Assembly: GCA_016790175.1 (NCBI GenBank)
Contig: JAEUPI010000270.1
Location: 1 to 49,751 of the forward strand
Source: Burkholderiaceae bacterium
GTDB taxonomy: Bacteria; Pseudomonadota; Gammaproteobacteria; Burkholderiales; Burkholderiaceae_C
Reading direction: 5' to 3'
DNA: 49,751 nucleotides
Part shown: positions 4,533 to 34,632 of the stretch, piece by piece
Layout of the letters: each line of letters starts with the position of its first letter
Numbering within the stretch: the first letter of the stretch is position 1
Notes under the pieces: model-generated
What the model was told of the DNA's origin: nothing
Database searches by the model: none
Seen by the model: only the letters and a program-made list of their open reading frames with translations
Position numbers and translations under genes: made by a program

Positions 4533-5498
4533 TCAGCTCTTCTTCGCCAGGCCCAGGCGCTCGACCGTCGCCCGCTCGGCTTCGAAGGTGCGCTCGGCGT
4601 AGCGGGAATAGTCGGCGCTGTTCATGTAGATCACCGGCTGCATGAACTTGTCGAGTGTCTCCAGCACCTTGGGATCCTCGAGCGTCTTGCGAAAGGCATC
4701 GTGCAGCACGCGCACCACGGCCGGGTCCATGCCCTTGGGGCCGCCGATGCCGAACGGCGAATCGCTGACCGTGTCCCACCCGCTCTCGGCCACCGTGGGC
4801 GCGTCGGGAAACACCTTGGTGCGCTGGCGGCCCAGCGTGGCCAGCAGGCGCAACTTGCCGGCCTGCACCAGCGGGCCGAACTCGCTGGCGCCGCTCATCA
4901 CCGGAATGTGGCCGCCGAGGATCGCCTGCACGATCTCGGCCGAACCCTTGAACGGCACGTCTTGCGCCTTGAAGCCGGCCTTGTGCGCGAACTCCTCGAA
5001 CGCCAGATGCGGCGTGGTGCCCGTGCCCGTGTGACCGTAGGTGAGCTTGCCGGGATTCGCCTTCGCCCAGTCGACCATTTCCTTCAGCGTCTTATACGGC
5101 GCATCGAGCGTCGCAGTGATGCCGAAGGTGTAGCCGGTGAGACAGACGATGTGCGTCAGGTCCTTCACCGGATCGAACGCCATCTTCTGCATGTGCGGCA
5201 GTCGGTAGATGCCCAGCGGCAGCTGCGTCAGCGCGTAGCCGTCGGGCTTGGCTTGCTGCATCGCCGTGGCCCCGAGCGTGCCGCCGACGCCGGGCTTGTT
5301 CTCGGTGATCACCGGCACCCCCAGCACCCTGGCCGCGCTGTCGCCGAAGGCACGCACCACGGCGTCGCTGGAGCCGCCCGGGGGCCAGGGACAGATCAGC
5401 GAGATCGCTCGCGACGGAAACCGCTCCTGGGCACGCAGCGAATTCACGAACGGCGCGGCCATGGCGGCGGCCACGAGATGGCGGCGTCGAGGGCTCAT
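4533..5498 (-). CDS. Bug/TctC-family periplasmic substrate-binding protein
   Basis: This 321-residue protein has an arginine-rich, possibly Tat-type signal (SPRRRHLVAAAMAA). The Bug family hallmarks follow: a first strand PSRAISLICPWPPGGSSD, VITENKPGVGGTLGA, the PDGYALTQLPLG segment, and a C-terminal PDAPTVAESG with GPKGMDPAV. It would capture a carboxylate in the periplasm for a tripartite tricarboxylate transporter. No membrane subunits lie next to it, so it is an orphan receptor like most Bug proteins. It is divergent from the helicase gene, with 91 bases between the two starts. The ligand cannot be named. Confidence 0.92.
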   Translation of the reverse strand: MSPRRRHLVAAAMAAPFVNSLRAQERFPSRAISLICPWPPGGSSDAVVRAFGDSAARVLGVPVITENKPGVGGTLGATAMQQAKPDGYALTQLPLGIYRLPHMQKMAFDPVKDLTHIVCLTGYTFGITATLDAPYKTLKEMVDWAKANPGKLTYGHTGTGTTPHLAFEEFAHKAGFKAQDVPFKGSAEIVQAILGGHIPVMSGASEFGPLVQAGKLRLLATLGRQRTKVFPDAPTVAESGWDTVSDSPFGIGGPKGMDPAVVRVLHDAFRKTLEDPKVLETLDKFMQPVIYMNSADYSRYAERTFEAERATVERLGLAKKS

Positions 5499-5589
5499 GC
5501 AGGGCTCCGGTTCAGTGGAATGCGGGAGGCGCGAGCATAGGGCGTGTCGGAATCGGCCGTCGCTGTATGCCTGTACAGTCTCGACTCCG

Positions 5590-7671
5590 ATGCCAACCGC
5601 CACCTTGCGCCGCGCGGACCGCCCTGCCGGGGCGGATCCGTTCGCCATGCTCTCCAGCGAGCAGCGCACCGCGGTCGACCATGGTCGCAGCGACAAGGAA
5701 ACCGGCCCGCTGCTGGTGATTGCCGGTGCCGGCACCGGCAAGACCACGACGCTGGCGTCGCGCGTCGCTCGACTGGTGCTCGATGGCGCCGACCCGCAGC
5801 GCGTGATGCTGTTGACCTTCTCGCGCCGGGCCGCGCAGGCGATGACGCATCGCGCCGGTCGGATGCTGCACGCGGCGCTGGGGCTCGGCGCCACGCAAGC
5901 CGCGCCGCTGCTGCCCTGGGCCGGCACGTTCCACAGCATCGGCGCCCGATTGCTGCGCGAGCATGCGCCCTCCATCGGGCTGCCGGCCGACTTCACGATC
6001 CTCGACCGTGGCGACGCCGAAGACCTGATGGCGCTGGTGCGCGAACAGCTCGGCTTCGCCCGCGGTGGCGAGCGCTTTCCGCTGAAGGGCACGTGCCTCG
6101 CGATCCTGTCGCGCCATGTCAATGCGCAGCTGCCGCTGGCCGACGTGCTGCACCGGCATTTCCCCTGGTGCGCGTCGCACGACGCGGCGCTGCGTCAGCT
6201 GTTCCGCGGCTACGTGCAGGCCAAGCAGGAGCAGCATCTGCTCGACTACGACGATCTGCTGCTCTATTGGCAGCAGATGATGGCCGAGCCCGCGCTGGCC
6301 TCGTTCATCGCCGGCCGCTTCAGCCACGTGCTGGTCGACGAGTACCAGGACACCAACCGCCTGCAGGCCGCCATCGTGCACGCGCTGGCGCCGCAAGGCC
6401 GCGGGCTCACCGTGGTGGGCGACGATGCACAGGCCATCTATGGCTTTCGCGCCGCCGAGGTGCGCAACATCCTCGACTTTCCGGCCGCGTTCGACCCGCC
6501 GGCGCGCGTGCTGACGCTCGCACAAAACCTCCGCTCCACGCAGCCGATCCTCGATGCCGCCAATGCGGTGATCGCGCTGGCGGCCGAGCGTTTCGACAAG
6601 CCGCTGTGGAGCCGCACCGTCGGCGCGAAGCCGCAGCTCGTGCATGTGGACGACGAGCTGGCCCAGGCGCGCTGGGTGGCCCACCAGGTGCTGCAACATC
6701 GCGAGGGCGGCCTTGCGCTGAAGAAACAGGCGGTGCTGTTCCGCACCTCGCATCACAGCGCGGCGCTGGAGCTCGAGCTGGCTCGGCGCGACATTCCGTT
6801 CGTCAAGTTCGGTGGGCTCAAGTTTCTCGAGGCCGCACACGTGAAGGACCTGCTCTCGGTGCTGCGCTGGGTGCAGAACCCGCGCGGCCGGCTAGCGGGC
6901 TTTCGCGTCGCGTTGTTGATGGCCGGCATGGGGCCGGCGAGCGCACGCCGACTGCTCGATGCGATGCACGAGGCGGCGGACCCGCGCGCCGCGATGCGCG
7001 CCTTCAGGCCGCCGCCCGCTGCCGCGGCCCATTGGGCACAGTGGCTCGCGGCGCACGATGCGCTCGCCGTCGGCGCCTGGCCCGACGACGTGGACACCGC
7101 GAGGCGCTGGTACGAGCCGCACCTGCAGCGGCTGCACGACGACGCCGCGATCCGCGCCGCCGACCTGGCTCAGCTCGCACGCCTGGCGGGCCAGTACGTG
7201 AGCCGCGAGCGATTCCTCGCCGAGCTGACGCTCGACCCGCCCGAGGCCAGCAGCGACGAGGCGGGCGAGCCGCACCGCGACGAGGACTACCTGATCCTCT
7301 CGACGCTGCATTCGGCGAAGGGCCAGGAATGGAACGCGGTGACGCTGCTGAACATGGTCGACGGCTGCATGCCGGCCGATCTGGCCGCCGGCAGCGAAGC
7401 CGAACTGGAGGAAGAGCGCCGCCTGCTCTACGTGGGCATGACGCGCGCCAAGCACCACCTCGCGCTGATGGTGCCGCAGCGCTTCCACGTCACGCAGCAA
7501 TCGCGCCACGGCGATCGCCATCTGTATGCCGGGCTCACGCGCTTCATCACGCCTGAGCTGCGTCCGTTGTTCGACGAGGTGTGCGCAGTGACGGCACCGC
7601 CCGTAGAGGCGCAAGCCCCGCCGGCCGCGGTGGCGATCGACCTCGCCGCCCGCGTGCGCGCGGCGTTCTGA
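5590..7671 (+). CDS. UvrD/Rep-type superfamily 1 DNA helicase
   Basis: This 693-residue protein carries ordered SF1A helicase motifs. Walker A is at about residues 44-52 (AGAGTGKTT). Walker B DEYQD is at 250-254. Motif III is VVGDDAQAIYGFR and motif IV contains QNLRSTQPI. Motif V is STLHSAKGQEW and motif VI is EERRLLYVGMTRAKHHL. It would unwind DNA with 3'-5' polarity, using ATP. The length and motif spacing are closer to Rep/PcrA/UvrD than to RecB, and no nuclease domain is seen. ATG 5590 is taken as the start; a Met at residue 20 is an alternative. The house-keeping uvrD or rep assignment is left open. Confidence 0.93.
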   Translation: MPTATLRRADRPAGADPFAMLSSEQRTAVDHGRSDKETGPLLVIAGAGTGKTTTLASRVARLVLDGADPQRVMLLTFSRRAAQAMTHRAGRMLHAALGLGATQAAPLLPWAGTFHSIGARLLREHAPSIGLPADFTILDRGDAEDLMALVREQLGFARGGERFPLKGTCLAILSRHVNAQLPLADVLHRHFPWCASHDAALRQLFRGYVQAKQEQHLLDYDDLLLYWQQMMAEPALASFIAGRFSHVLVDEYQDTNRLQAAIVHALAPQGRGLTVVGDDAQAIYGFRAAEVRNILDFPAAFDPPARVLTLAQNLRSTQPILDAANAVIALAAERFDKPLWSRTVGAKPQLVHVDDELAQARWVAHQVLQHREGGLALKKQAVLFRTSHHSAALELELARRDIPFVKFGGLKFLEAAHVKDLLSVLRWVQNPRGRLAGFRVALLMAGMGPASARRLLDAMHEAADPRAAMRAFRPPPAAAAHWAQWLAAHDALAVGAWPDDVDTARRWYEPHLQRLHDDAAIRAADLAQLARLAGQYVSRERFLAELTLDPPEASSDEAGEPHRDEDYLILSTLHSAKGQEWNAVTLLNMVDGCMPADLAAGSEAELEEERRLLYVGMTRAKHHLALMVPQRFHVTQQSRHGDRHLYAGLTRFITPELRPLFDEVCAVTAPPVEAQAPPAAVAIDLAARVRAAF

Positions 7672-8262: not shown

Positions 8263-9198
8263 CTAGTCCTCGCCGGTCGTGCTGGCCACGCGATCGTCGG
8301 CGAACAGCTCGAACACCACGCGTCGCAGCCACTGGTTGGCCGGGGAGCGGTGGACCTTGGCATGCCAGAAGGCGTTGATTGCCACCTCGGGCAGCGCCAC
8401 CGAGTGCGGCAGGTAGGTCAGACCGAAGGGCCCGGCCAGGCGTTCGGCGAGCTTCTCGGTCACCGTGGCCACGAGGTCGGTGGCCTGCAGGATATGGCCC
8501 ACGCTGACGAAATGCGGCACCGTCAGCCGTACGGTGCGCTCGATGCCGGCGCGGCGAATCAACTCGTCGACGCGGCCGTGCCCGGTGCCGGCGGCCACCA
8601 CCACCAGGTGTTCGGCGCCGGCGTAGTCCTGCCGCGACAGTCGGCGCTTGGTGCCGAGTGCATGGCCGCGGCGGAACAGGCACACATAGCGCTGGCGGAA
8701 CAAGCGCCGCTGGAAGAATCCCGCCTTCAGCTGCGGCAGCAGTCCGATCGCCAGATCGACCTTGCCCGATTCCATGTCGTCGCGCAGGTTGGTGGCGGTA
8801 TGGCGCACGGTGGACAGCGTGATGCCCGGCGCCTCGCCGGCGAGCCGTCGCACCAGCGCGGGCAGGAACACGATCTCGCCGATGTCGGTCATGCCGATGG
8901 TCATCGCGCGGCGTTCGCTCGCCGGATCGAAGCGGGTCTGTGTGTTCAGCCCGTCGTGCAGCAACGCCAGCGCCTGGCCCACCGGGCCGGCGAGCTGCTC
9001 GGCCAGCGGTGTGGGCACCATGCCCTGCGGCGTGCGCAGAAAGAGCTCGTCGCCGAAGCGGCGCCGCAGCTTGGCCAGTGCATTGCTCACCGCCGGCTGC
9101 GTGCGGCCGAGCTGCTCGGCCACACGCGAGACCCGCCGTTCGAGCATCAGTCGGTGGAACACCACCAGCTGGTTGAGGTCGAGGTCGGTCAGTTCCAT
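8263..9198 (-). CDS. LysR-family regulator, NahR/DntR-like
   Basis: This is a 311-residue LysR protein. The N-terminal winged helix (about 1-65) contains DLDLNQLVVFHRLMLERRVS and TQPAVSNALAKLRRRFGDEL. The effector domain contains TIGMTDIGEIVFLP, VDLAIGLLPQLKAGFFQRRL, VVAAGTGHGRVDE and VALPEVAINAFWHAKVH. From memory these segments align closely along the length with NahR/DntR of Pseudomonas and Burkholderia, which sense salicylate. It is divergent from the aryl-acid operon at 9305 and very probably controls it. A palindromic T-N11-A site sits 15 bases upstream of its start. Salicylate or a close analogue as effector is inference. Confidence 0.93.
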   Translation of the reverse strand: MELTDLDLNQLVVFHRLMLERRVSRVAEQLGRTQPAVSNALAKLRRRFGDELFLRTPQGMVPTPLAEQLAGPVGQALALLHDGLNTQTRFDPASERRAMTIGMTDIGEIVFLPALVRRLAGEAPGITLSTVRHTATNLRDDMESGKVDLAIGLLPQLKAGFFQRRLFRQRYVCLFRRGHALGTKRRLSRQDYAGAEHLVVVAAGTGHGRVDELIRRAGIERTVRLTVPHFVSVGHILQATDLVATVTEKLAERLAGPFGLTYLPHSVALPEVAINAFWHAKVHRSPANQWLRRVVFELFADDRVASTTGED

Positions 9199-9212
9199 CG
9201 CGCCGCAGCTAT

Positions 9213-9227
9213 ATCACCAAGCGTGAT
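9213..9227. promoter_or_regulatory. LysR box (T-N11-A palindrome), NahR-like
   Basis: ATCAC and GTGAT form a perfect inverted repeat separated by 5 bases, containing the LysR signature T-N11-A. It lies between the divergent regulator (start 9198) and the operon (start 9305). Read on the minus strand it gives TCACGCT then TGAT three bases later. That is close to the NahR consensus as I recall it (ATTCACGCT-N2-TGAT). A second weaker pair, CATTCA 9234-9239 and TGAATG 9255-9260, lies on the operon side. Confidence 0.6.
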
Positions 9228-9304
9228 GATGGGCATTCACCAGATTCTATTGGCTGAATGTGCATCGCTGGCGACACTGGCGCCCTCCGCACCGAAGCCC
9301 CACG

Positions 9305-10459
9305 ATGAAGATCCGCATCCTCGGCGCCGGCCCGGCCGGCCTGGCCTTCGCCGCGCTGATGAAGCGCCACGATCCGTCGCACGACATCGTGGTGTTCGAG
9401 CGCAGCCCGCGCCACGCCACCTGGGGCTTCGGCGTGGTGTTCTCCGACCGCGCGCTGGAGTTCCTGCGCGCCGACGACGAGGCGCTGTACCAGCTGCTCA
9501 CGCCGCACCTCGAGACCTGGCCCAACATCACAATCGTGCACGGCCACACCCGTGTGCCCATGGCGGGCAACGGTTTCGCGGCGATCGGCCGGCTGGAGAT
9601 GCTGTCGCTGATGCACGCCCATGTGGAGTCGCTCGGCGTGCCGATCCGCTTCGAGACCGACGTCGTGTCGATCGACCAGATGCAGGGGCCGGGGACAGAG
9701 GCCGACCTCGTGGTCGCCGCCGACGGCGCGTTCTCGCGTGTGCGCAGCGAGCGAGAGGCGGCGTTCGGCACCACGATCGACTGGCGGCCCAACAAGTTCA
9801 TCTGGTACGGCACGACCAAGGCCTTCGACACGCTGACGCTCACGTTCCGGCCGACCGAGTGGGGCGTGTTCTGCGCGCACCACTACCGCTATGCGCCCGA
9901 CCGCAGCACCTTCCTCGTCGAACTGCAGGCCGACACCTGGCAGCGCGCGGGTTTCGAGGCGATGGGTGCCGACGACACGATCCGGCTGTGCGAGCGCGTG
10001 TTCGCCGACGACCTCGACGGTCACCCGATCCTGTCGAACCACTCGCACTGGCGCAACTTTCCGGCGATCTGGAACGAACGCTGGAGCGCCGGCCGCGTGG
10101 TGCTGCTCGGCGATGCGCTGCGCACCGCGCATTTCTCCATCGGCTCGGGCACGCGCCTGGCCATGGAAGACGCGGTGGCCCTGTTCAAGGCCTTGCGCGC
10201 CGGCGGCGACGACGTGGACAGCGCGCTCGCGCAATTCCAGCAGCTGCGCATGCCGCCGATGAAGAAGATCTGGGACGCCGCCAACGTGAGTCTGCGCTGG
10301 TACGAACGCATGGATGAACTCGTCGCCACGCGCTCGCCGGTGGAGTTCGCCTACGACTACCTCACGCGCACCGGCCGCGTGGACCATGCCGAGGTGCGCC
10401 GCCGCGACCCCGCGCTGGCCCGTGCCTACGAGGCGCTGCACCCCGAGGTCGCGTCGTGA
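9305..10459 (+). CDS. FAD monooxygenase, salicylyl-CoA 5-hydroxylase / anthraniloyl-CoA monooxygenase-like
   Basis: This is a 384-residue class A flavin hydroxylase. The N-terminal dinucleotide fold is KIRILGAGPAGLAFAALM, followed by VVFERSPRHATWGFGVVFSD. A DLVVAADGAFSRVRSERE segment and the FAD-ribityl motif RVVLLGDALRTAHFSIGSGT follow. The C-terminus contains SLRWYERMDELVATRSPVEF and RTGRVDHAEVRRRDP. These resemble the flavin half of salicylyl-CoA 5-hydroxylase and of the anthraniloyl-CoA monooxygenase/reductase fusion, but here there is no fused reductase domain. It probably hydroxylates an aryl-CoA or aryl-acid in the cytoplasm. It is the first gene of the operon, and the ligase follows within 26 bases. 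Confidence 0.88.
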   Translation: MKIRILGAGPAGLAFAALMKRHDPSHDIVVFERSPRHATWGFGVVFSDRALEFLRADDEALYQLLTPHLETWPNITIVHGHTRVPMAGNGFAAIGRLEMLSLMHAHVESLGVPIRFETDVVSIDQMQGPGTEADLVVAADGAFSRVRSEREAAFGTTIDWRPNKFIWYGTTKAFDTLTLTFRPTEWGVFCAHHYRYAPDRSTFLVELQADTWQRAGFEAMGADDTIRLCERVFADDLDGHPILSNHSHWRNFPAIWNERWSAGRVVLLGDALRTAHFSIGSGTRLAMEDAVALFKALRAGGDDVDSALAQFQQLRMPPMKKIWDAANVSLRWYERMDELVATRSPVEFAYDYLTRTGRVDHAEVRRRDPALARAYEALHPEVAS

Positions 10460-10485
10460 CGACCGTTGCACGAGGAGACACGCCC

Positions 10486-12132
10486 ATGGATGGTTTCGTC
10501 CCTTGGCCCGACGAACTCGCCGAACGTTATCGCCGGCTCGGCTTGTGGGAGGGCCTCACGATCGGCGCGATGGTCGAGCGCACGGCCAAGCGGCTGCCCG
10601 ACAAGGTGGCCGTGGTGAGCGGCGAGCAGCGCCTTCGCTATGCCGAGCTGGTCGAGCGCAGCCGACGGCTGGCGCTCGGTTTCGCGCGCGCCGGGCTTGC
10701 GCGCGGCGAGCGCGTGGTGCTGCAACTGCCGAACTCGGTCGACTTCGTGCTCGCCTACCTGGCGCTGCAGTGGATCGGCGCGGTGCCGGTGATGGCGTTG
10801 CGCCCACACCGCCAGGCCGAGGTGCGTCACTTCATCCGCGCCTCGGGTGCCGTGGCGTACATCGTGCCCGACGTCGTGAGCGGTTTCGACTTTCGCGAGA
10901 TGGCGGCGCAGATGCAGCGCGAGTTTCCGGCGCTGCGCTGGGTGGCCGTGGCCGGCGAGGCGGGCGAGGGGCAGCGCACGCTCGCGTCGATGACCGAGGC
11001 GGCACTGCCGATCGCCGATGTCGAGGCGGCGCTCGCGCCGCTGGCACCGAACCCGGGCGACGTGTGCACGATGCTGCTCTCGGGCGGCACCACGTCGCTG
11101 AACAAGCTGATCCCGCGCACGCACGACGACTATGTGCTCAACGCACGGGCCTGCGGCGCGGTGGCCGACCTTGCCGAAGATGCGGTCTTCATGGCCATCC
11201 TGCCGCTGGGCCACAACTACAACCTGGCCTCGCCCGGCATGCTGGCCACCTTCCATGCCGGCGGCACGATGGTGCTCACGAAAGGCACCACACCGGAGGA
11301 GGTGTTCGCGCTCGTCGAGCGCGAGCGGGTGACGCTGATCGCCGCGGTGGTGCCGCTGATCACGGCATGGCTCAACTCCGACGTGCCGGCGCGGCACGAC
11401 CTGTCGTCGCTGCGCGTGGTGCAGAACGGCGGCGCGCGGCTCGCGCCCGAACTACGGCGCCGTTTGCGCGAGCAGCTGCACTGCACGCCGCAGGAGGTGT
11501 ACGGCACGGCAGAAGGCCTGATCAACATGACGCGCCTCACCGATCCCGACGATCGGCTGCTGGAAAGCTCCGGCGCCCCGGTGCTCGACGAAGACGAGAT
11601 CCGCGTCGTCGACGACGAGGGTCGCGAGGTGCCCGACGGCGAAACCGGCGAACTCGTCACGCGCGGGCCGTACACGATCCGCGGCTACTACGACGCGCCG
11701 GAGAAGAACCGCGAGGCCTTCCTGCCCGGCGGCTGGTACCGCATGGGCGACATCGTGCGCAAGCAGGGCCGCACCGTCTACACCGAAGGCCGCCGCAAGG
11801 ACCTGATCAACCGCGGTGGCGAGAAGATCTCGTGCGACGAGGTCGAGAACCTGATCTTCGCGCACCCGGCGGTCAAGGCCGTGGCGCTGGTGGCGATGCC
11901 CGATCCGGTGTTCGGCGAGAAGGCCTGTGCCTTCGTGGTGCCCAAGGACGGGCAGACGCTCGACCTGCCCGGACTCGTGGCCTTTCTGCGGCAGCAGCAG
12001 ATCGCGAGCTTCAAGCTCCCCGAGCGGCTGGAACTGGTGACTGCGCTACCGCAAAGCCCGGTGGGAAAGATCCTCAAGCGCGAGTTGCGCGAGCGGCTGA
12101 TCGCCACAATGCAGACACAGGCGCCGACCTGA
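10486..12132 (+). CDS. Aryl acid AMP/CoA ligase, EntE/DhbE/salicylate ligase-like
   Basis: This is a 548-residue adenylate-forming ligase. Signature motifs are the phosphate loop SGGTTSLNKLIPRTHDDY, the A5 motif YGTAEGLINMTRL, the A7/A8 region GDIVRKQGRTVYTEGRRKDL then INRGGEKISCDEVEN, and the A10 lysine in SPVGKILKRELRE. The SGG-loop and TRL motif are typical of 2,3-dihydroxybenzoate- or salicylate-AMP ligases. It should activate an aryl acid with ATP. No carrier protein is visible, so CoA is the probable acceptor. ATG 10486 is preferred because GAGGAGA lies about 7 bases upstream; an in-frame GTG at 10456 overlapping the previous stop would add 10 residues. Confidence 0.9.
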   Translation: MDGFVPWPDELAERYRRLGLWEGLTIGAMVERTAKRLPDKVAVVSGEQRLRYAELVERSRRLALGFARAGLARGERVVLQLPNSVDFVLAYLALQWIGAVPVMALRPHRQAEVRHFIRASGAVAYIVPDVVSGFDFREMAAQMQREFPALRWVAVAGEAGEGQRTLASMTEAALPIADVEAALAPLAPNPGDVCTMLLSGGTTSLNKLIPRTHDDYVLNARACGAVADLAEDAVFMAILPLGHNYNLASPGMLATFHAGGTMVLTKGTTPEEVFALVERERVTLIAAVVPLITAWLNSDVPARHDLSSLRVVQNGGARLAPELRRRLREQLHCTPQEVYGTAEGLINMTRLTDPDDRLLESSGAPVLDEDEIRVVDDEGREVPDGETGELVTRGPYTIRGYYDAPEKNREAFLPGGWYRMGDIVRKQGRTVYTEGRRKDLINRGGEKISCDEVENLIFAHPAVKAVALVAMPDPVFGEKACAFVVPKDGQTLDLPGLVAFLRQQQIASFKLPERLELVTALPQSPVGKILKRELRERLIATMQTQAPT

Positions 12133-12163
12133 CAAGGCGCCGACACGACGAGGAGACGCAACG

Positions 12164-14134
12164 ATGAGACCTGGCGAAGCCAAGCTGTCCAAGCTGTTCG
12201 AACCCGCGCGCATCGGCCGCTTCGAGACGAGCAACCGCATCAAGTACGGCGCCTGCTGCGTGTCGAACTACAACACGCGCGACGGCTACATCACCGAGCG
12301 CGAGATCGCACGCATGAAGGTCATCGCGCGCACCGGCTGCGGCATCATCACCAACCAGGGTGCGTACCCCGACCCGCTCGGCGAAGGCAAGGCCTACTTC
12401 CGCCAGGTGGCGATCTTCGACGACAAGTTCCTGCCGCAGTTCGAGCGCATCGCCGCCGACATCAAGGCCCACGGCGCGGTGGCGATCCAGCAGATCCTGC
12501 ATGCCGGGCGCTATGGCGGCATCGACCTCGGCTACTGCATCCAGCCGTCCGACGTGCCGCAGACGCTGCCGCACTTCCGCCCGCCGAAGGTGATGACCAA
12601 GGACGAGATCGCGAGCTGCATCGCGCAGCACGCCGACGCCGCCAAGCGTGCGGTGCGTGCCGGCTTCGACGGCACCGAGATCACCAGCTTCATGGGCTAC
12701 CTGCTGGCCAACTTCAACTCCCGCTTCACCAACCAGCGCAGCGACGAGTACGGTGGCACGATCGCCAACCGCGGCCGCTTCATGCGCGAGCTGATCGACG
12801 CCATCAAGCAGGCCACCCCCGATCACCCGCTCGTCGTGCGGCTGAACGGCGCCGAGCTGATGGACCGCTGGGGCGGCAACACCGAAGACGAATGCTTCGA
12901 GCTGATGCAGCAGGCGGTGGACGTCGGTGTCGACATGATCAGCGTCACCGTCGGCTGGCAGGAGGCGCCGGAGTCGTCGATCGGCCGCGACATCGAGCCC
13001 GGCTACTGGAACTACCTGTCCGCGCGCGCCAAGAAGCAGTTCCCGAACACGCTGATCACCTTCGGCAACCGCCTGCCCGACCCGCGCATGGCCGACCAAT
13101 GTCTGCGCGACGGCATGTTCGACTTCTGGGAGGTGTGTCGCCCGCTGCTGGCCGACCCCGAGCTCGTGCACAAGGCCGCCGAAGACCGGCTCGACGAGGT
13201 GCGCCGCTGCATCGGATCGCTCAACTGCCTGTCGCGCCTGTTCCGCGACCTGCCCTACACCTGCACGATGAACCCGGCGCTCGGCCACGAGGTGGAGCCC
13301 GAGTACCAGGTCACGCCGGCGGCGGTGAAGAAGAAGATCATGGTCATCGGTGCCGGGCCGGCCGGCATGGAGTGCGCCATCGCCGCGGCCAGGCGCGGCC
13401 ATGCGGTGACGGTGTTCGACAAGGCCGATCGCATCGGCGGCAATCTGCTGGCCTATGCCCATAACGACCTCGCGCGGCCTGACGACCTGCTGTCGGTCGT
13501 GTCGCACTACGAGGTGATGGCCAGGAAGCTCGGCATCGAGCTGCGGCTGAAGACCGAGGTGCATGCCAAGTTCATGCGCAGCGTGCTGCACCAATACGAC
13601 GTCTGCGTGGTCGCGGCAGGCGCGCGCGTCGACCGCACGCGCGTTGCGCACATCGAAGGCGCCGAGCGGCTGATCGACGCGCTCGACGTGGCGCACGGCC
13701 GCACCAAGCCGGGCCGTCGGGTGGTGGTGGTCGGCGGCGGCAAGGTCGGGCTGACGATCGCCGAGTCGCTGCGCAAGCACCACGGCGCCGAGGTCACTGT
13801 CGTCGAGGCCGACAAGCGCATCGCCGGCGACGTGAAGCCGTCGTTCAAGTGGCGCCATGCGTCGTGGGTCGAGGAGCTCGGCATCCCGTGCCTGACGAAC
13901 CATCAGCTCGTCAAGGTGAATGCCGAAGGCGCCACGGTGCGCGATGCCAAGGGCGGCGAGCGGCTGGTGCCGGCCGACAGCGTAATCCTGGCCGCCGGCG
14001 CGGCGCCGGCGCACGATCTGATGCACGAATTCGAGTGGATGGTCGACGAGCTGCACGGCATCGGCGATGCGATGGTGCCGCGCGGCCTCGAGCAGGCGAT
14101 CGCCGATGGTTTCCGCCTCGGCGTGCGGCTGTGA
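12164..14134 (+). CDS. FadH-like NADH:flavin oxidoreductase with altered Fe-S and active-site motifs
   Basis: This 656-residue protein has the layout of 2,4-dienoyl-CoA reductase/trimethylamine dehydrogenase: an OYE-type TIM barrel (about 1-335), an iron-sulfur segment (349-367), then FAD and NAD(P) domains (IMVIGAGPAGME near 390-405; VVVVGGGKVGLTIAE near 520). Tyr179 in MGYLLANF matches the active-site Tyr of E. coli FadH. Two family features are changed. The cluster motif is Cys349-x2-Ser352-x2-Cys355-x11-Cys367, lacking the second Cys. The usual GWHEAR segment reads GWQEAP, with Gln266. It has a GAGGAG ribosome site and lies 31 bases after the ligase. The substrate is unknown; reduction of a hydroxylated, dearomatised aryl-CoA is an inference. 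Confidence 0.88.
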   Translation: MRPGEAKLSKLFEPARIGRFETSNRIKYGACCVSNYNTRDGYITEREIARMKVIARTGCGIITNQGAYPDPLGEGKAYFRQVAIFDDKFLPQFERIAADIKAHGAVAIQQILHAGRYGGIDLGYCIQPSDVPQTLPHFRPPKVMTKDEIASCIAQHADAAKRAVRAGFDGTEITSFMGYLLANFNSRFTNQRSDEYGGTIANRGRFMRELIDAIKQATPDHPLVVRLNGAELMDRWGGNTEDECFELMQQAVDVGVDMISVTVGWQEAPESSIGRDIEPGYWNYLSARAKKQFPNTLITFGNRLPDPRMADQCLRDGMFDFWEVCRPLLADPELVHKAAEDRLDEVRRCIGSLNCLSRLFRDLPYTCTMNPALGHEVEPEYQVTPAAVKKKIMVIGAGPAGMECAIAAARRGHAVTVFDKADRIGGNLLAYAHNDLARPDDLLSVVSHYEVMARKLGIELRLKTEVHAKFMRSVLHQYDVCVVAAGARVDRTRVAHIEGAERLIDALDVAHGRTKPGRRVVVVGGGKVGLTIAESLRKHHGAEVTVVEADKRIAGDVKPSFKWRHASWVEELGIPCLTNHQLVKVNAEGATVRDAKGGERLVPADSVILAAGAAPAHDLMHEFEWMVDELHGIGDAMVPRGLEQAIADGFRLGVRL

Positions 14135-14529
14135 CGCTGCCGTCGCCGCAGGCCTGGCGCGCCGCTGCGGCGCGGCACGGTGAGCTGTTCGACGCGCTCG
14201 ATCCCGGTGCGCGCATCGCGCTGCTGGCGCGCTCGGCGCCGCAGCAGATGCTGCTGTGGGAGGTCGGCGCCGGCGGCGTCGAGGCGCGGCTCGCACCGTT
14301 CGGCGGCTATGCGCAGTGCGGCGCCGACATCGCGTTGGCGGCCGACGACGAAGCGCTGGCCGCGATCGGCACGGCGATCGACGGCGAGCTCTTCGACAAG
14401 CTGAAGAGCGGCATCCGCTCCGGACACATCGTCACGTTCATGCTCAAGCGCCGCTGCCAGCTCGAAGAGCGCGGCTTCGACGAACTGCTCGATGCGCTCG
14501 GCTTCGTGTTCATGGGGGCCTGCCGGTGA
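14131..14529 (+). CDS. Unknown 132-residue protein coupled to the FadH-like gene
   Basis: The GTG at 14131 overlaps the FadH-like stop in a GTGA, so translation is coupled. I do not recognise the family. The protein is alpha/beta and cytoplasmic by composition, with no signal or membrane segment. An N-terminal helical part (AWRAAAARHGELFDALDPGA) is followed by strands with LLWEVGAGGVEARLAPFGGY. The most distinctive part is the C-terminus, with FDKLKSGIRSGHIVTFMLKR and RRCQLEERGFDELLDALGFV. It has two Cys near the C-terminal third and end. Position inside the operon suggests an accessory subunit or chaperone for the reductase or hydroxylase; this is inference only. Confidence 0.8.
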   Translation: MTLPSPQAWRAAAARHGELFDALDPGARIALLARSAPQQMLLWEVGAGGVEARLAPFGGYAQCGADIALAADDEALAAIGTAIDGELFDKLKSGIRSGHIVTFMLKRRCQLEERGFDELLDALGFVFMGACR

Positions 14530-14732
14530 TCTTCACCAATCCCGCCGGTGCACCTGAGCTCGCCTGCGACGCCTGCGGCTGCCGCTGGTTCGACCGCATG
14601 CGCGGGACCTGCTACGAATGCGGCGCCGAGGTCAGCGCCGAGTCGCAGGCCGAATTCAGACGGGCGCTGCAGGCGTTCGCGGCGCGCGCGCCGGCGAGCA
14701 CCATCGCGAAGCCGCCGCCTCGCGAACGCTGA
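14526..14732 (+). CDS. Zinc-ribbon-like micro-protein (68 residues)
   Basis: The gene starts at GTG 14526, which overlaps the previous stop in a GTGA as in the gene before. Five cysteines are clustered: Cys14-x2-Cys17-x-Cys19 and, after nine residues, Cys29-x2-Cys32, within ELACDACGCRWFDRMRGTCY then ECG. This is a rubredoxin- or zinc-ribbon-like knuckle pair, followed by a helical Ala-rich tail. It could bind zinc as a structural accessory, or iron as a small electron carrier. No family name is assigned. It is the last gene of the operon, and a hairpin follows the stop. Confidence 0.78.
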   Translation: MIFTNPAGAPELACDACGCRWFDRMRGTCYECGAEVSAESQAEFRRALQAFAARAPASTIAKPPPRER

Positions 14733-14734
14733 GT

Positions 14735-14775
14735 CCGCGCGCGTCTCGCGCGGGAGGGCCGAGCCCGCGCGGCTC
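14735..14775. terminator. Tandem GC hairpins between convergent genes
   Basis: CCGCGCG/CGCGCGG (14735-14753, 5-base loop) is followed at once by GAGCC/GGCTC (14761-14775). The pair sits directly after the micro-protein stop and touches the end of the convergent SnoaL gene. There is no T-tract on the plus strand, so this is a weak or Rho-assisted terminator candidate. Confidence 0.4.
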
Positions 14776-15181
14776 AGCGCGGCAGCAACGCGATGTGCTT
14801 GGCCGTGTCCAGGTAGTGGCGAAAGCGCACGACCTGGCCCTGCGCGTTCACGGTCCACAGGTGCATTTCTTCGTCGCGCAGGTGGCCGCCGTCGGGCAGG
14901 TTGAAGTCGACCTTGCATTCCACGGCCACCTGGCCGTCGCTGGCCATCATGCCGAGCACCTGGAAGTCGTTGAACTTGAAGGTGCCGACGATGCCGAAGA
15001 ATTCGGCCGCGGCGCCCTTGCCCGAGCCGCCGCGCATCCACGGCACGCCGGCCGCCTGGGCCGAGTTGTGCGGCCAGGGCTCCCACTTCACTTCGTCGTC
15101 CAGGCGATCGAGGATGGCGGCGATGTCGCCACGGCCGAACGCGGCGTAGATCTGTTGCACGGTCTGCAATGCGGTGGTCAT
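14774..15181 (-). CDS. SnoaL/NTF2-like fold protein
   Basis: This is a 135-residue protein of the SnoaL-like (NTF2 superfamily) fold. It has an N-terminal helix TALQTVQQIYAAFGRGDIAA, the DDEVKWEPWPH strand, and central GKGAAAEFFGIV. The C-terminal strands HLWTVNAQGQVVRFRHYLDT are typical of ketosteroid-isomerase-like members. The start at ATG 15181 has GGAG about 8 bases upstream; a longer frame from 15208 lacks support. Catalytic chemistry is not predictable; many such proteins are uncharacterised isomerases or hydrolases. It is divergent from the RibD-type reductase. Confidence 0.82.
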   Translation of the reverse strand: MTTALQTVQQIYAAFGRGDIAAILDRLDDEVKWEPWPHNSAQAAGVPWMRGGSGKGAAAEFFGIVGTFKFNDFQVLGMMASDGQVAVECKVDFNLPDGGHLRDEEMHLWTVNAQGQVVRFRHYLDTAKHIALLPR

Positions 15182-15272
15182 GGTGTGCTCCAGAGGTCGG
15201 TGGAGCAACTACGGGGCGCAGGGGCATTCGGATGCAGATGCCTGGCACGACCGGCAGTGGCACCATCAGGAG

Positions 15273-22717: not shown

Positions 22718-23704
22718 TCAGTTCGCGGTGATGCGCTGGGCCTGGATCACCGTGGCCCAGCGCACGGCATCCTTCGCGATCAGCGCGCGGAACTCGTCGG
22801 CGCTGCTGTGTGCCGGCGACATGCCCTGGGTGGCGAAGGCGGCCTGCACCTCGGGCAACGCGAGGATGCTCTTCAGCTCCTGATTCAGCCGATCGGTGAG
22901 GGCCCTGGGCGTGCCGGCCGGCGCGAGCACGCCGTACCACATGTCGACGTCGAGGTGACCCATGTTGAGCGAGCGCAGCGGCGGCACCTCGGGCAGCAGC
23001 GGGTGCGGCTTGTCACTGCTGATGCCGAGTGCACGAATGCTGCCGGCCTTCACGTGCTGAAGCGCCACGTGAATCGGCAGGAACATCACGTCGATCTGGC
23101 CGCCGAGCAGGTCGGTCACGGCCGGCGCGCTGCCGCGGTAGGGGATGTGCGTGATGAAGGTGCGCGTCTCGTTCTTCAGCAGCTCCATCGCCAGATGATG
23201 CGGCGTGCCGTTGCCGGGCGATCCGTAGTTGAGCGAACCGGGCCGGGCGCGCGCACGTGCCAGCAGCTCCTGGGTGCTGGTGATGCCCGAGGCCTTGCTG
23301 GTCACGAGCAGCAACTGGCCCCAGCTGGTGAGGCTGACCGGCTCGAGATCCTTGACCGGGTCGAAGCCGAGGTTGGGATACAGCGCCCGATTCATCACCA
23401 GCGTGTTCACCGTCACCAGCAGCGTGCTGCCGTCGGGCGCGGCGCGCACGACGGCCTCGGTGCCCAGGTTGCCCGACGCGCCGGCGCGGTTGTCCACCAC
23501 CACCGGCCGACCCAGGCGCTCGCTGAGCTTGGGGCCGATCTGGCGAGCGATCAGGTCGATGCCGGTGCCGGGTGTGAATGGCACGATCAGCCGCATCGGC
23601 GGGCCGCTTGCCGCGGTCTGCGCGCGCACGGTCGGCATCGTGGTCGCCGCGGTGGCGGCAATCAGCAGCCAGCGTCGACGGGACACGGTGGGGCGTCGGT
23701 TCAT
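22718..23704 (-). CDS. Bug/TctC-family periplasmic substrate-binding protein
   Basis: This Bug protein of 328 residues from ATG 23704 (five more from ATG 23719) has a Tat-like signal (SRRRWLLIAATAATTMPTVR). The mature fold has MRLIVPFTPGTGIDLIARQI, VVDNRAGASGNLGTEAVVRA, PDGSTLLVTVNTLVMN and the HIPYRGSAPAVTDLLGGQID segment. It probably captures an aromatic or other carboxylate. Immediately downstream is a flavin hydroxylase, so the pair may serve uptake and first attack on one substrate. No membrane subunits are adjacent. Confidence 0.92.
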   Translation of the reverse strand: MNRRPTVSRRRWLLIAATAATTMPTVRAQTAASGPPMRLIVPFTPGTGIDLIARQIGPKLSERLGRPVVVDNRAGASGNLGTEAVVRAAPDGSTLLVTVNTLVMNRALYPNLGFDPVKDLEPVSLTSWGQLLLVTSKASGITSTQELLARARARPGSLNYGSPGNGTPHHLAMELLKNETRTFITHIPYRGSAPAVTDLLGGQIDVMFLPIHVALQHVKAGSIRALGISSDKPHPLLPEVPPLRSLNMGHLDVDMWYGVLAPAGTPRALTDRLNQELKSILALPEVQAAFATQGMSPAHSSADEFRALIAKDAVRWATVIQAQRITAN

Positions 23705-23825
23705 GTTCGGCGGACTCATCGGCGTTGCGGGCCGCTGAGCGTAGCAGCTAGCGAGTGTCAGGGCCGTCGCCAGGGCAGCGTGCAGCCCATGCCATCATGC
23801 GCCAACGCAGGGAGGGCGCGCCTCG

Positions 23826-26690: not shown

Positions 26691-27245
26691 GTGACGCCAG
26701 AGCCGCTGTGCGTCGTGGTGATGGGCGTCAGCGGCTGCGGCAAGAGCACGGTCGGCCGGCTGATCGCCGAGGCGCTCGACCGACCGTACCTCGAAGGCGA
26801 CGCGTTCCATCCGCCGGCCAACGTGGAGCGCATGCGCGCCGGCATCGCTCTCAGCGACGAGGACCGTGCGCCGTGGCTGCACACACTCGCCGAACGGCTG
26901 GCGCAGGCGCGGCGCGACGGCGGCGGCGTGGTGCTCGCCTGCTCGGCGCTCAAACGCCGCTATCGCGACGTTCTGCGCGGCGACGTGCCAAGCGGCGGCA
27001 CACCCGATCTCGCCTTCGTGCACCTGCACGGCACGCGCGAGCTGCTCGAGTCGCGCATGGCGCAGCGCAGCGGCCACTACATGCCGGCCTCGCTGCTGGC
27101 GAGCCAGCTCGACGCGCTCGAACCGCCGCAGCCCGACGAGCTCGCGATCACGCTCGACGTGGCGCTGCCGCCGGAGCAGATCGCGCAGCGCGCGCTCGCC
27201 TGGCTGCGTGACCGCCGAATGGCTGGCGACTCAGGCCCTGCCTGA
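26691..27245 (+). CDS. gntK: Gluconokinase
   Basis: This 184-residue kinase starts at GTG directly after the dehydrogenase stop. The Walker A motif is GVSGCGKST at residues 12-20. Other GntK marks are LEGDAFHPPANVERMRAGI, VVLACSALKRRYRDVLRGD and SGHYMPASLLASQLDALE. It phosphorylates gluconate to 6-phosphogluconate, feeding the adjacent Gnd enzyme in the cytoplasm. Its last 15 bases overlap the 3' end of the convergent tctA gene. Confidence 0.94.
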   Translation: MTPEPLCVVVMGVSGCGKSTVGRLIAEALDRPYLEGDAFHPPANVERMRAGIALSDEDRAPWLHTLAERLAQARRDGGGVVLACSALKRRYRDVLRGDVPSGGTPDLAFVHLHGTRELLESRMAQRSGHYMPASLLASQLDALEPPQPDELAITLDVALPPEQIAQRALAWLRDRRMAGDSGPA

Positions 27246-28718
27246 CCTTCGCCGCATCGCGGCAACGAACGTCCAGCCCACGACCACGATCGTCACCACC
27301 GCCAGCGTGCCGGCAATCGGGCGCGAGAAGAACATCGCGAAGTTGCCATCGGCCTTGATCATCGAGGCCATGAAGTTCTGCTCCAGCATCTCGCCGAGCA
27401 CGAGGCCGAGCACCAGCGGCGCGACCGGGATGCCGTTTTCCTCCATCAGCCAGCCGATGATGCCGAAGGTCAGCATCAGCAAGATGCCGTAGGGGCTGTT
27501 GGTGATGGCGAACGAGCCGACGATGCAGAACAGCAGGATCACCGGCAGCAGCAGCGTGCGCGGCGCGCGCAGCAGCTTGCCCGCCGCCTTCATCGCCGCC
27601 CAGCCGAGCGGCAGCATCAGCAGGTTGGCGAGCACGAAGATGATGAACACCGCATAGATGAACTGCGGGTTCTGCAGGAACACCGTCGGCCCCGGGTTCA
27701 TGCCCTTCATGTAGAGCACGCCGATCACGATCGCCGTGATGCTGTCGCCCGGGATACCGAACACCAGCGCCGGGATCCAGGCGCCGCCGAGCGCCGAATT
27801 GTTGGCCGCGGTCGACTCGACCACGCCTTCCACATGGCCGGTGCCGAACTTCTCGGGCTCCTTCGAGAAGCGCTTGGCCATGGCATACGACACCCAGGCC
27901 GCGATGTCGGCGCCGGCGCCGGGCAAGGCGCCGATCGCGGTGCCGACCACCGAGCCGCGGAGGAAGCCGCGCCAGTACTTGCGCGCCACCTCGCCGATGC
28001 CCTTGAAGAGGGCTCCTACCTTCTCCTGCACCAGCACGCCGGCACCGTCGCCGCTGCTGGCGTTGCGCAGCAGCTCGGAAATCGCGAACGCCCCGATCAT
28101 CGTCGGGATGAAGCTCACGCCCGACATCAGGTCCACGCTGCCGAAGGTGTAGCGCGGGTGGCCGGCCACCGGATCGATGCCGATGCAGCCGACGGCCAGC
28201 CCGATCAGCATCGACAGCAGTGCCATCGTGCGGTTGCCGCTGGAGATCATCGTCGCGCACGACAGGCCCAGGCAGGCGAGCCAGAAGTATTCGAACGACG
28301 AGAAGTTGATCGCCGCCTCGGCCAGCAGCGGTGCGGCGACGATGAGGAAGGCCACGCCGATCAGCCCGCCGGCCACCGAGAACACGAGGTTGGCGCCGAG
28401 GTTGAGTTCGAGCTGGCCGCGTTTGGCCATCGCATAGCTCTCGTCCACGTAGGCCGCCGAGGCCGGCGTGCCCGGCATGCGCAGCATCGCACCCGGAATG
28501 TCGCCGGCGAAGATCGCCATCGCCGTGGCGGTGACGATCGCGCCCAGCGCCGGCACCGGCGGCATGAAGAACGTGATCGGCACCAGCAGCGCGGTGGCCA
28601 TCGTCGCGGTCAACCCGGGAATCGCGCCGACGAAGATGCCGAAAACGGCTGACAGGCCGATCACCATCAGCACGTATGAGTCGAACACCAATCCGAAGGC
28701 GGATTGCAGCGCGGCCAC
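27231..28718 (-). CDS. tctA: Tripartite tricarboxylate transporter large permease, TctA type
   Basis: This 495-residue protein has about 12 membrane spans. The TctA signatures are IFVGAIPGLTATMATALLVP, MAIFAGDIPGAMLRMPGTPA, GTAIGALPGAGADIAAWVSY and FGIPGDSITAIVIGVLYMKG. It forms the main channel of a Bug-dependent, sodium-linked carboxylate transporter. The tctB-type gene precedes it with 3 bases between, and the Bug gene and a ring-cleavage dioxygenase gene lie upstream on the same strand. Its 3' end overlaps gluconokinase by 15 bases on the other strand. Confidence 0.95.
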   Translation of the reverse strand: MAALQSAFGLVFDSYVLMVIGLSAVFGIFVGAIPGLTATMATALLVPITFFMPPVPALGAIVTATAMAIFAGDIPGAMLRMPGTPASAAYVDESYAMAKRGQLELNLGANLVFSVAGGLIGVAFLIVAAPLLAEAAINFSSFEYFWLACLGLSCATMISSGNRTMALLSMLIGLAVGCIGIDPVAGHPRYTFGSVDLMSGVSFIPTMIGAFAISELLRNASSGDGAGVLVQEKVGALFKGIGEVARKYWRGFLRGSVVGTAIGALPGAGADIAAWVSYAMAKRFSKEPEKFGTGHVEGVVESTAANNSALGGAWIPALVFGIPGDSITAIVIGVLYMKGMNPGPTVFLQNPQFIYAVFIIFVLANLLMLPLGWAAMKAAGKLLRAPRTLLLPVILLFCIVGSFAITNSPYGILLMLTFGIIGWLMEENGIPVAPLVLGLVLGEMLEQNFMASMIKADGNFAMFFSRPIAGTLAVVTIVVVGWTFVAAMRRRSGRA

Positions 28719-33633: not shown

Positions 33634-34632
33634 GTGAACCGTCGCCCCTTGCTCGCCGCCGTGGCCGTTGCCGCGCTCACCACGCTGGGCCTGGCCCCGC
33701 CGATCGCGCTGGCGCAGGACGCCTGGCCGAGCAAGCCGGTCAAGATCGTCAGCCCGTTTCCCGCCGGGGGCACGAGCGACGTGATGGCCCGCATGATCTC
33801 GCAGGCGCTGTCGAAGGAGCTGGGCCAGCAGTTCGTGGTCGAAAACATCGGCGGCGCCGGCGGCACGATCGGCACGCTCAAGGCCACGCAGGCCGCGCCC
33901 GACGGCTACACGCTGATCCAGACCGGTGTCGGCCAGAACGCGGTGGCGCATGGCCTGGATCCCAAGCTCGCCTACGACTCGATGCGCGACTTCATCCACG
34001 TCACGCAGGTGCACTCGGGCCCCAACGTGCTGGTGGTGCATCCGGACCAGCCGTTCAAGACCTTCCAGGAACTGGTCGGCTACATCCGCAAGAACCCGGG
34101 CAAGATGAACTACGGCTACACCCATGCGGCCAGCGGCCACATGGCGATGGAGCTGCTCAAGCAGGTCGGCGGCGAGGGCGGGCGGCCGCTGTACATCGTG
34201 GGCATCCCGTACCGCGGCGGCGGCCCGATGATGCAGGACATCCTCGGCGGCCAGATCCCGATGATGTTCATCAACCAGGACGTCGCGCTGCCGCACATCA
34301 GGGCCGGCAAGCTGCGTGCGCTGGCGGTCACCAGTCTGCAGCGCAACCCGCTGTATCCCGACGTGCCCACGATCGCCGAGACCGGCATCAAGGGCTACGA
34401 GGCGCTCTCCTGGTCGGGGCTGTCGGCGCTGAAGGGCACGCCCAAACCCATCGTCGACAAGCTGGAGGCGGCGATGAAGAAGATCATGACTTCACCCGAG
34501 ATCAAGCAGCGCATGGAGTCGGTAGGCTTCGTGATCCCGCCGCAGGGCTCGGAGCCCTATACCCGGTTCGTCAAGAGCGAGATCGAGCTCTGGACGCGCG
34601 TGATCAAGACGGCGGGGATCAAAGCGGAGTAG
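33634..34632 (+). CDS. Bug/TctC periplasmic binding protein of the sugar-acid cluster
   Basis: This 332-residue protein starts at GTG 33634 with GAGGAGA about 7 bases upstream. The signal peptide ends near LAQ after a hydrophobic VAVAALTTLGLA. Bug marks are KPVKIVSPFPAGGTSDVMAR, VVENIGGAGGTIGTLKATQA, PDGYTLIQTGVG and GIPYRGGGPMMQDILGGQI. The aldehyde dehydrogenase follows 5 bases later, so the receptor is tied to catabolism of a sugar acid or related dicarboxylate. Membrane subunits are not adjacent. Confidence 0.93.
   Translation: MNRRPLLAAVAVAALTTLGLAPPIALAQDAWPSKPVKIVSPFPAGGTSDVMARMISQALSKELGQQFVVENIGGAGGTIGTLKATQAAPDGYTLIQTGVGQNAVAHGLDPKLAYDSMRDFIHVTQVHSGPNVLVVHPDQPFKTFQELVGYIRKNPGKMNYGYTHAASGHMAMELLKQVGGEGGRPLYIVGIPYRGGGPMMQDILGGQIPMMFINQDVALPHIRAGKLRALAVTSLQRNPLYPDVPTIAETGIKGYEALSWSGLSALKGTPKPIVDKLEAAMKKIMTSPEIKQRMESVGFVIPPQGSEPYTRFVKSEIELWTRVIKTAGIKAE

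Follow-up and report, generated by a model that had tools for sequence, protein, structure and literature searches.

The anaerobic breakdown of anthranilate and of salicylate (2-hydroxybenzoate) by denitrifying bacteria has been described enzymatically, and the early enzymology of the salicylate route reportedly left both an oxo-enoyl-CoA and benzoyl-CoA possible as products. To my knowledge, no genes are known for the reductive step in the anaerobic breakdown of anthranilate or salicylate, and a literature search turned up no paper that assigns a gene to this step and none on a 2-hydroxybenzoyl-CoA reductase. For anthranilate breakdown without oxygen, a review mentions a 2-aminobenzoyl-CoA reductase but, in the passage in question, no gene; the literature drawn on here comprises sections of PMC6502838, PMC3425912, PMC5742626, PMC12093976, PMC4539516 and PMC9765128. 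In this study I describe an operon in a stretch of 49,751 nucleotides (the window; positions 1 to 49,751 of contig JAEUPI010000270.1, assembly GCA_016790175.1) from a Burkholderiaceae bacterium. Its five genes, all on the plus strand, encode a stand-alone flavin monooxygenase of the salicylyl-CoA 5-hydroxylase type (FMO, 384 aa, 9305-10459), an aryl acid adenylating CoA ligase resembling DhbE and EntE (LIG, 10456-12132, GTG start), an FMN/FAD oxidoreductase of the old yellow enzyme (OYE) type that resembles 2-naphthoyl-CoA reductase and has an incomplete Fe-S site (RED, 12164-14134), and two small proteins, SM1 (132 aa, 14131-14529, GTG start) and SM2 (68 aa, 14526-14732, GTG start). RED-SM1-SM2 goes with class I benzoyl-CoA reductase. 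It is quite possible, if somewhat short of an even chance, that salicylyl-CoA is common to an aerobic branch (FMO, gentisate) and an O2-independent branch (RED, SM1, SM2) feeding the benzoyl-CoA pathway, as far as sequences can tell.

The association with benzoyl-CoA reductase is apparent in a survey of 399 genomes of the order, with limits of E<=1e-150 for RED and E<=1e-60 for BcrC, the reductase subunit C. RED is found in 4 genomes and BcrC in 14 (12 over the cut-off and two as contig-end fragments), and every one of the 4 RED genomes also has BcrC (Fisher p 1e-6, kinship ignored, and with the window's own genome as one of the four). This genome holds two contig-end BcrC fragments and a BoxB fragment, and the contig of one of the BcrC fragments also carries an Oah homologue (627 bits, over the cut-off), an enoyl-CoA hydratase, a 2-oxoacid:ferredoxin oxidoreductase and a Rid-family protein. 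Among 50 named RED genomes, BcrC is present in 39 at E<=1e-40 and over the cut-off in 33, and 3 of the 11 remaining genomes have BzdN over the cut-off; taken together, 48 of 63 named RED genomes score over the cut-off for BcrC or BzdN, not all of them being tested with both models. In other genomes RED sits in dch-had-oah(-bzd) clusters, and in 12 loci the distance between RED and Oah is no more than about 2 kb; five of these stretches also contain BzdN. In Aromatoleum buckelii U120 (L171, same record as L072), LIG and a LysR gene diverge from the series had-RED-SM1-SM2-oah-had-RidA. The same strain has a second RED (in the region L172:1482-6481), with a gene for a molybdopterin oxidoreductase and one of the cyclase family upstream of it, a neighbourhood that presumably resembles the anaerobic indoleacetate cluster.

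The module was followed by scanning genome contigs with an SM2 alignment; of the 85 loci that were confirmed, the best 80 were kept. With the loci taken from whole genomes, RED lies less than 900 bp from SM2 and on the same strand in 54 of the 60 loci that have both, and 29 of 73 RED loci have LIG no more than 3 kb away from RED, both counts including duplicate records of a few genomes; the sequence-only reading of this DNA had grouped the reductase and the small genes with the ligase, and the comparison of genome neighbourhoods agrees with it. RED is missing from 24 of the 80 loci, yet in 18 of these genomes that were searched it occurs elsewhere in 13, and 12 of these 13 have BzdN over the cut-off. 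Most of the hosts belong to the Betaproteobacteria or Rhodospirillales, and a few are metagenome-assembled genomes titled Bacillota or Acidobacteria; no plasmid record of the collection gave a RED match at E<=1e-100. A RED tree of 71 rows (four identical pairs) plus 2-naphthoyl-CoA reductase (NCR) spreads the LIG-linked members over many clades and places the window RED in a clade of 14 rows (fork 100/98). A first search with SM1 gave 7 of the 399 genomes of the order, among them G142, a weak match without any module gene in its stretch.

RED had been called FadH-like by the sequence-only reading, and this did not survive the comparison with solved structures. The best match is NCR (PDB 6qkg; 408 bits, residues 10-656), whose layout of OYE barrel, FAD domain and second alpha/beta domain RED shares, against 235 bits for FadH; moreover, the window RED has Cys32, Gln266 and three cysteines where FadH has His26, the active-site His and four Fe-S cysteines, and the FadH identity was dropped on these residues. 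The equivalents of NCR Tyr197, Arg245 and Glu341 are kept in 71 of 71 RED rows. Of these, Tyr197 is catalytic and Glu341 lowers the redox potential, while a Trp closes the NADPH site, according to the relevant sections of PMC6502838; this Trp459 is replaced by Leu in 70 of 71 rows, Gln takes the place of the active-site His (NCR His284) in all rows, and mostly Cys is found at the position of NCR Val38. Compared with NCR and FadH, the second of the four [4Fe-4S] cysteines is gone by a one-residue deletion in 71 of 71 rows, with the other three kept. The GxGxxG motif, lost in NCR, is retained in most RED rows. Between 13 rows of a salicylate clade and 17 rows of a benzoyl-CoA/RidA clade there are 17 fixed differences, none of them at the active-site positions checked, which leaves the RED reaction unsettled by sequence.

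The loss of the cluster site favours a different reaction, namely O2-dependent re-aromatisation. An OYE-family dienoyl-CoA oxidase with flavin and disulfide cofactors has reportedly been described from benzoyl-CoA degraders (in Molecular Microbiology, about 2020). RED could likewise be a dienoyl-CoA oxidase that re-aromatises ring-reduced CoA esters and thereby protects an O2-sensitive reductase, with FMO passing the aryl-CoA to the aerobic branch and SM1 and SM2 assisting; its substrates would be a 1,5-dienoyl-CoA, or the dienol or oxo-enoyl-CoA formed from salicylyl-CoA by benzoyl-CoA reductase. The loss of one Fe-S cysteine in every RED row, with three left, would fit the reported flavin/disulfide oxidase, RED sits in dch-had-oah-bzd clusters, and the window RED shares its operon with an O2-using hydroxylase. 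However, of the 14 genomes in the order that carry BcrC, 10 lack RED at E<=1e-150, the retained GxGxxG motif speaks against an oxidase, and RED often adjoins LIG, or elsewhere RidA or an anthranilate-CoA ligase homologue, which protection from oxygen does not predict. I consider the oxidase the main rival reading, possible but less likely than not.

The scheme that I put forward instead takes the genes as a salicylate operon of a probably facultatively anaerobic member of the Burkholderiales. The LysR-type regulator would respond to salicylate and LIG would form salicylyl-CoA, as expected from its family. With oxygen, FMO would convert salicylyl-CoA to gentisyl-CoA, and a dioxygenase encoded elsewhere in the genome very probably cleaves gentisate. 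Without oxygen, RED, aided by SM1 as a possible carrier of SCP2 fold and by the Cys-rich SM2, would pass a hydride to the ring of salicylyl-CoA, yielding either 6-oxocyclohex-1-ene-1-carboxyl-CoA, the substrate of Oah, or, through loss of water, benzoyl-CoA; I weigh both products equally. On chemical grounds, salicylyl-CoA plus two electrons, followed by tautomerisation, should give the oxo compound. This compound belongs to the Dch-Had-Oah route, and it is also reached from 2-fluorobenzoyl-CoA, according to the part of PMC5742626 that deals with it. What the sequences show are the homologies, the order of the genes, the conservation of the module, the loss of an Fe-S cysteine and the co-occurrence with benzoyl-CoA reductase; the reactions are proposals. 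The earlier suggestion of a ring-reduction route holds only in part: reduction after hydroxylation finds no support here, while reduction of salicylyl-CoA itself is possible.

Several observations weigh against this scheme. Parts of the literature describe type III aryl-CoA reductases as holding a [4Fe-4S] cluster, and unlike these, RED has lost one cluster cysteine in every row. The step from salicylyl-CoA to the oxo-enoyl-CoA lies near -490 mV by a rough estimate, which would be hard for NAD(P)H. RED is also found in benzoyl-CoA clusters without LIG, and the active-site positions checked do not separate the two sorts, which means that the RED substrate need not be salicylyl-CoA. No LIG, FMO, gentisate dioxygenase, Oah/Had, BzdN, anthranilate ligase or RidA was found within 9 kb for 21 of 71 RED rows, some of them cut by contig ends. 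The BcrC genomes without RED count here as well, one of which (G010) has SM1-SM2 near a contig end. Conversely, G132 has SM1-SM2 and the last 53 RED residues at a contig start, yet gives no BcrC match, and 15 of the 63 named RED genomes remain under both cut-offs, not all being tested with both models. Finally, LIG has the Ser that I take to mark 2,3-dihydroxybenzoate enzymes at one position of presumed importance for specificity.

RidA is located within about 3 kb of RED in 7 loci (L088, L112, L116, L171, L172, L173 and L184), and membership of the Rid family was confirmed for L112, L116, L171, L172 and L184. A ligase of the benzoate-CoA ligase kind, just under the TIGR02262 cut-off, lies near RED in L088, L112 and L116; the L112 ligase has anthranilate-CoA ligase as its nearest solved structure (308 bits, versus 242 for benzoate-CoA ligase). 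The amino analogue of salicylyl-CoA would give an imine, and an imine from 2-aminobenzoyl-CoA would explain the presence of RidA near RED. A more general proposal, which I hold to be rather unlikely as a whole, is that LIG-RED-SM1-SM2 may constitute an ATP- and O2-independent entry of ortho-substituted benzoates into the benzoyl-CoA pathway, in which RED, acting on a monocyclic aryl-CoA without an intact Fe-S site, would convert salicylyl-CoA to 6-oxocyclohex-1-ene-1-carboxyl-CoA and bypass benzoyl-CoA reductase, and the RidA-linked paralogues would do likewise with 2-aminobenzoyl-CoA via the imine; the window operon would carry the aerobic branch as well.

FMO matches the N-terminal, hydroxylase half of NF006101, the model for salicylyl-CoA 5-hydroxylase/oxidoreductase, with 397 bits, and it is 67% identical to Swit_5101 of plasmid pSWIT02 in Rhizorhabdus wittichii RW1, whose neighbouring gene carries the annotation gentisate 1,2-dioxygenase. 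A tree of 49 FMO rows groups the window FMO with Swit_5101 and sets 14 fused frames apart as a separate clade. FMO is an unfused enzyme of the VioD/SalH type within the clade of the salicylate-induced Swit_5101, and the stand-alone hydroxylase of the salicylyl-CoA type that had been predicted is supported by these comparisons. Sections of PMC3425912 report that both RW1 genes are 56- and 42-fold up on salicylate versus the PHE control, and that the pair, proposed to lead to gentisate, is yet not essential. Apart from FMO, no module gene was found in the RW1 stretch around Swit_5101, and RED is absent there. The operon of the sister genome G396 (L050 and L078, which share a contig) includes a gentisate dioxygenase homologue, situated between FMO and LIG and scoring 264 bits with TIGR02272 against a cut-off of 442, and the operons of L112 and L138 hold such a homologue too, the L138 copy with 38% identity. 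The window's own genome has one on a different contig (258 bits, 57% identical to the L050 copy). Given these homologues beside FMO relatives and the own-genome copy, FMO most likely feeds gentisate, judged from gene content. The sequence-only reading had noted the lack of a ring-cleavage dioxygenase, which is correct for the window operon, but homologues of such an enzyme are present in the operons of L050/L078, L112 and L138 and on another contig of the window's own genome.

The gentisate dioxygenase homologues also bear on the pathway considered first, namely hydroxylation of the aryl-CoA by FMO with subsequent reduction of the hydroxylated ring by RED, on the pattern of the fused anthraniloyl-CoA monooxygenase/reductase. 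The hydroxylase half of that enzyme is a homologue of FMO, and FMO, LIG and RED occur together in 11 distinct loci (all three on the same strand in 10); six further loci have a divergent FMO some kb upstream. RED, however, reaches only 118 bits with the second half of the fused model. Fifteen genomes were searched for FMO, and leaving out three without LIG nearby, a stand-alone FMO was not found in 7 of the 12 LIG-RED genomes: in six, all matches are frames of 754-891 aa that were interpreted as fused enzymes, and Rhodospirillaceae LM-1 has no FMO match at E<=1e-50. Of the others, G271, G411 and G440 have a stand-alone FMO, G424 has a fragment only, and G429 is ambiguous. Hydroxylation is therefore no prerequisite of RED. 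FMO stands beside gentisate dioxygenase without RED in RW1, and homologues of this dioxygenase are part of three operons of the kind studied here. Since FMO and RED each occur without the other, the chain from hydroxylation to ring reduction was dropped as very unlikely. The separation of hydroxylase and reductase, to which the sequence-only reading had drawn attention, is real, since FMO ends unfused at 384 aa, but not novel by itself, because stand-alone salicylyl-CoA hydroxylases (cehH) were annotated before. A different fusion is seen in L052, L053, L110, L135 and L146, where a single frame of about 920 aa joins the salicylyl-CoA hydroxylase type with the benzoate-CoA ligase family in the same stretch as SM1-SM2.

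LIG is, as predicted, an EntE/DhbE-like ligase over its full length. It scores 555 bits with TIGR02275, the model for 2,3-dihydroxybenzoate-AMP ligase, under the curated cut-off of 723.55, and its nearest solved structure is a salicylate-AMP ligase (529 bits), followed by two 2,3-dihydroxybenzoate-AMP ligases (520 and 514 bits). LIG has Ser at a position occupied by Cys in the salicylate-AMP ligases 5wm2 and PchD, and Ile at a second one, a combination found in 26 of 30 LIG rows; I take these two positions to set acid specificity. This, together with the occurrence of RED without LIG, would suit a module that serves another ortho-hydroxy aryl acid, for example 2,3-dihydroxybenzoate, with RED acting only further down the benzoyl-CoA pathway. 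Against this stand the NahR/DntR-like regulator and the hydroxylase partner with its gentisate dioxygenase homologues, which point to salicylate, and I regard this alternative as improbable.

Neither of the two small proteins, described as unknown by the sequence-only reading, matches Pfam or NCBIfam at E<=0.01. An AlphaFold2 model of SM1 from a 64-row alignment has a mean pLDDT of 92, and its top Foldseek and VIA matches are SCP2 proteins with middling scores; the conserved C-terminal Gly-Ala-Cys-Arg (GACR) is modelled with low confidence. SM1 may be an acyl-CoA carrier or partner. SM2 has the pattern CxxCGC...CxxC, and 86 of 87 copies retain all five cysteines (6 of these copies with a longer loop); it may hold a metal site. 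Its predicted structure has a mean pLDDT of 83 and shows no significant similarity to known folds. A second SM1-like protein, SM1', precedes SM1 in several Rhodocyclaceae-type loci or follows RidA in Aromatoleum, with copies at L171:13399-13800, L079:9109-9525 and L172:10736-11131. In L079, L089, L096, L104, L111 and L120, SM1'-SM1-SM2 lies near genes that belong to two clusters; the members tested from these encode a MeaB-XdhC protein in L089 and a MobA-like protein in L096. In several of the loci the trio is located upstream of a short-chain dehydrogenase/reductase or an acyl-CoA dehydrogenase.

Opposite the operon, on the minus strand, lies the LysR-type regulator gene (8263-9198). Its product matches PDB 5ae5, titled 'LysR-type regulatory protein', with 355 bits over residues 1-303 and thus at full length, and best resembles LysR-type proteins among solved structures; I take 5ae5 to be DntR, and the NahR-like character claimed for the regulator is supported on that understanding. 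It is 55% identical to the LysR protein encoded next to LIG in L171. The divergent region between LysR and FMO contains an inverted repeat, ATTCA-N15-TGAAT (9235-9259), possibly a LysR operator; a scan of 10 sources gave a single further match, in L171 between LIG and LysR. A search of 9150-9350 for sigma-70-like promoters found none. Three of the four operon junctions (FMO/LIG, RED/SM1 and SM1/SM2) are GTGA overlaps and LIG and RED are spaced by 31 bases. The divergent regulator and five tightly packed genes lie where the sequence-only reading had placed them. Pfam and NCBIfam support LysR, FAD_binding_3 (FMO), AMP-binding (LIG) and Oxidored_FMN with Pyr_redox_2 (RED). Convergent with the operon is a gene for a SnoaL-like protein (14774-15208, minus strand). 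The window also has three TctC-type receptors and one TctA permease (22718-23719, minus; 27231-28715, minus; 33634-34629, plus; 4533-5600, minus), for which no connection with the operon was seen.

RED-SM1-SM2 with LIG gives a concrete candidate for the missing genes of the reductive step, present in a named strain, A. buckelii U120. If RED is an oxidase, the locus would be a case of protection from oxygen built into a salicylate operon, and either reading brings in two small protein families without a Pfam or NCBIfam match.

Compared with known systems, FMO is closest to the stand-alone salicylyl-CoA 5-hydroxylases CehH and Swit_5101, with which it shares its clade and the gentisate route, although Swit_5101 has nothing else of the module around it. 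The fused 2-aminobenzoyl-CoA monooxygenase/reductase is homologous to FMO in its N-terminal half, but carries an OYE domain and belongs to its own clade. DhbE, EntE and the salicylate-AMP ligases are homologues of LIG over its full length, whereas LIG stays under the TIGR02275 cut-off and has a catabolic context, and none of the five operon genes encodes a carrier protein. The dienoyl-CoA oxidase reportedly belongs, like RED, to the OYE family, has its Fe-S cluster replaced, where RED has lost one cluster cysteine, and likewise has a link to class I benzoyl-CoA reductase; in the window, the RED gene is part of a salicylate-type operon with SM1 and SM2. NCR shares with RED the three-domain FMN/FAD layout and the equivalents of Tyr197, Glu341 and Arg245, and differs in its four-Cys site, His284, Val38 and Trp459, and the substrate expected for RED is monocyclic.

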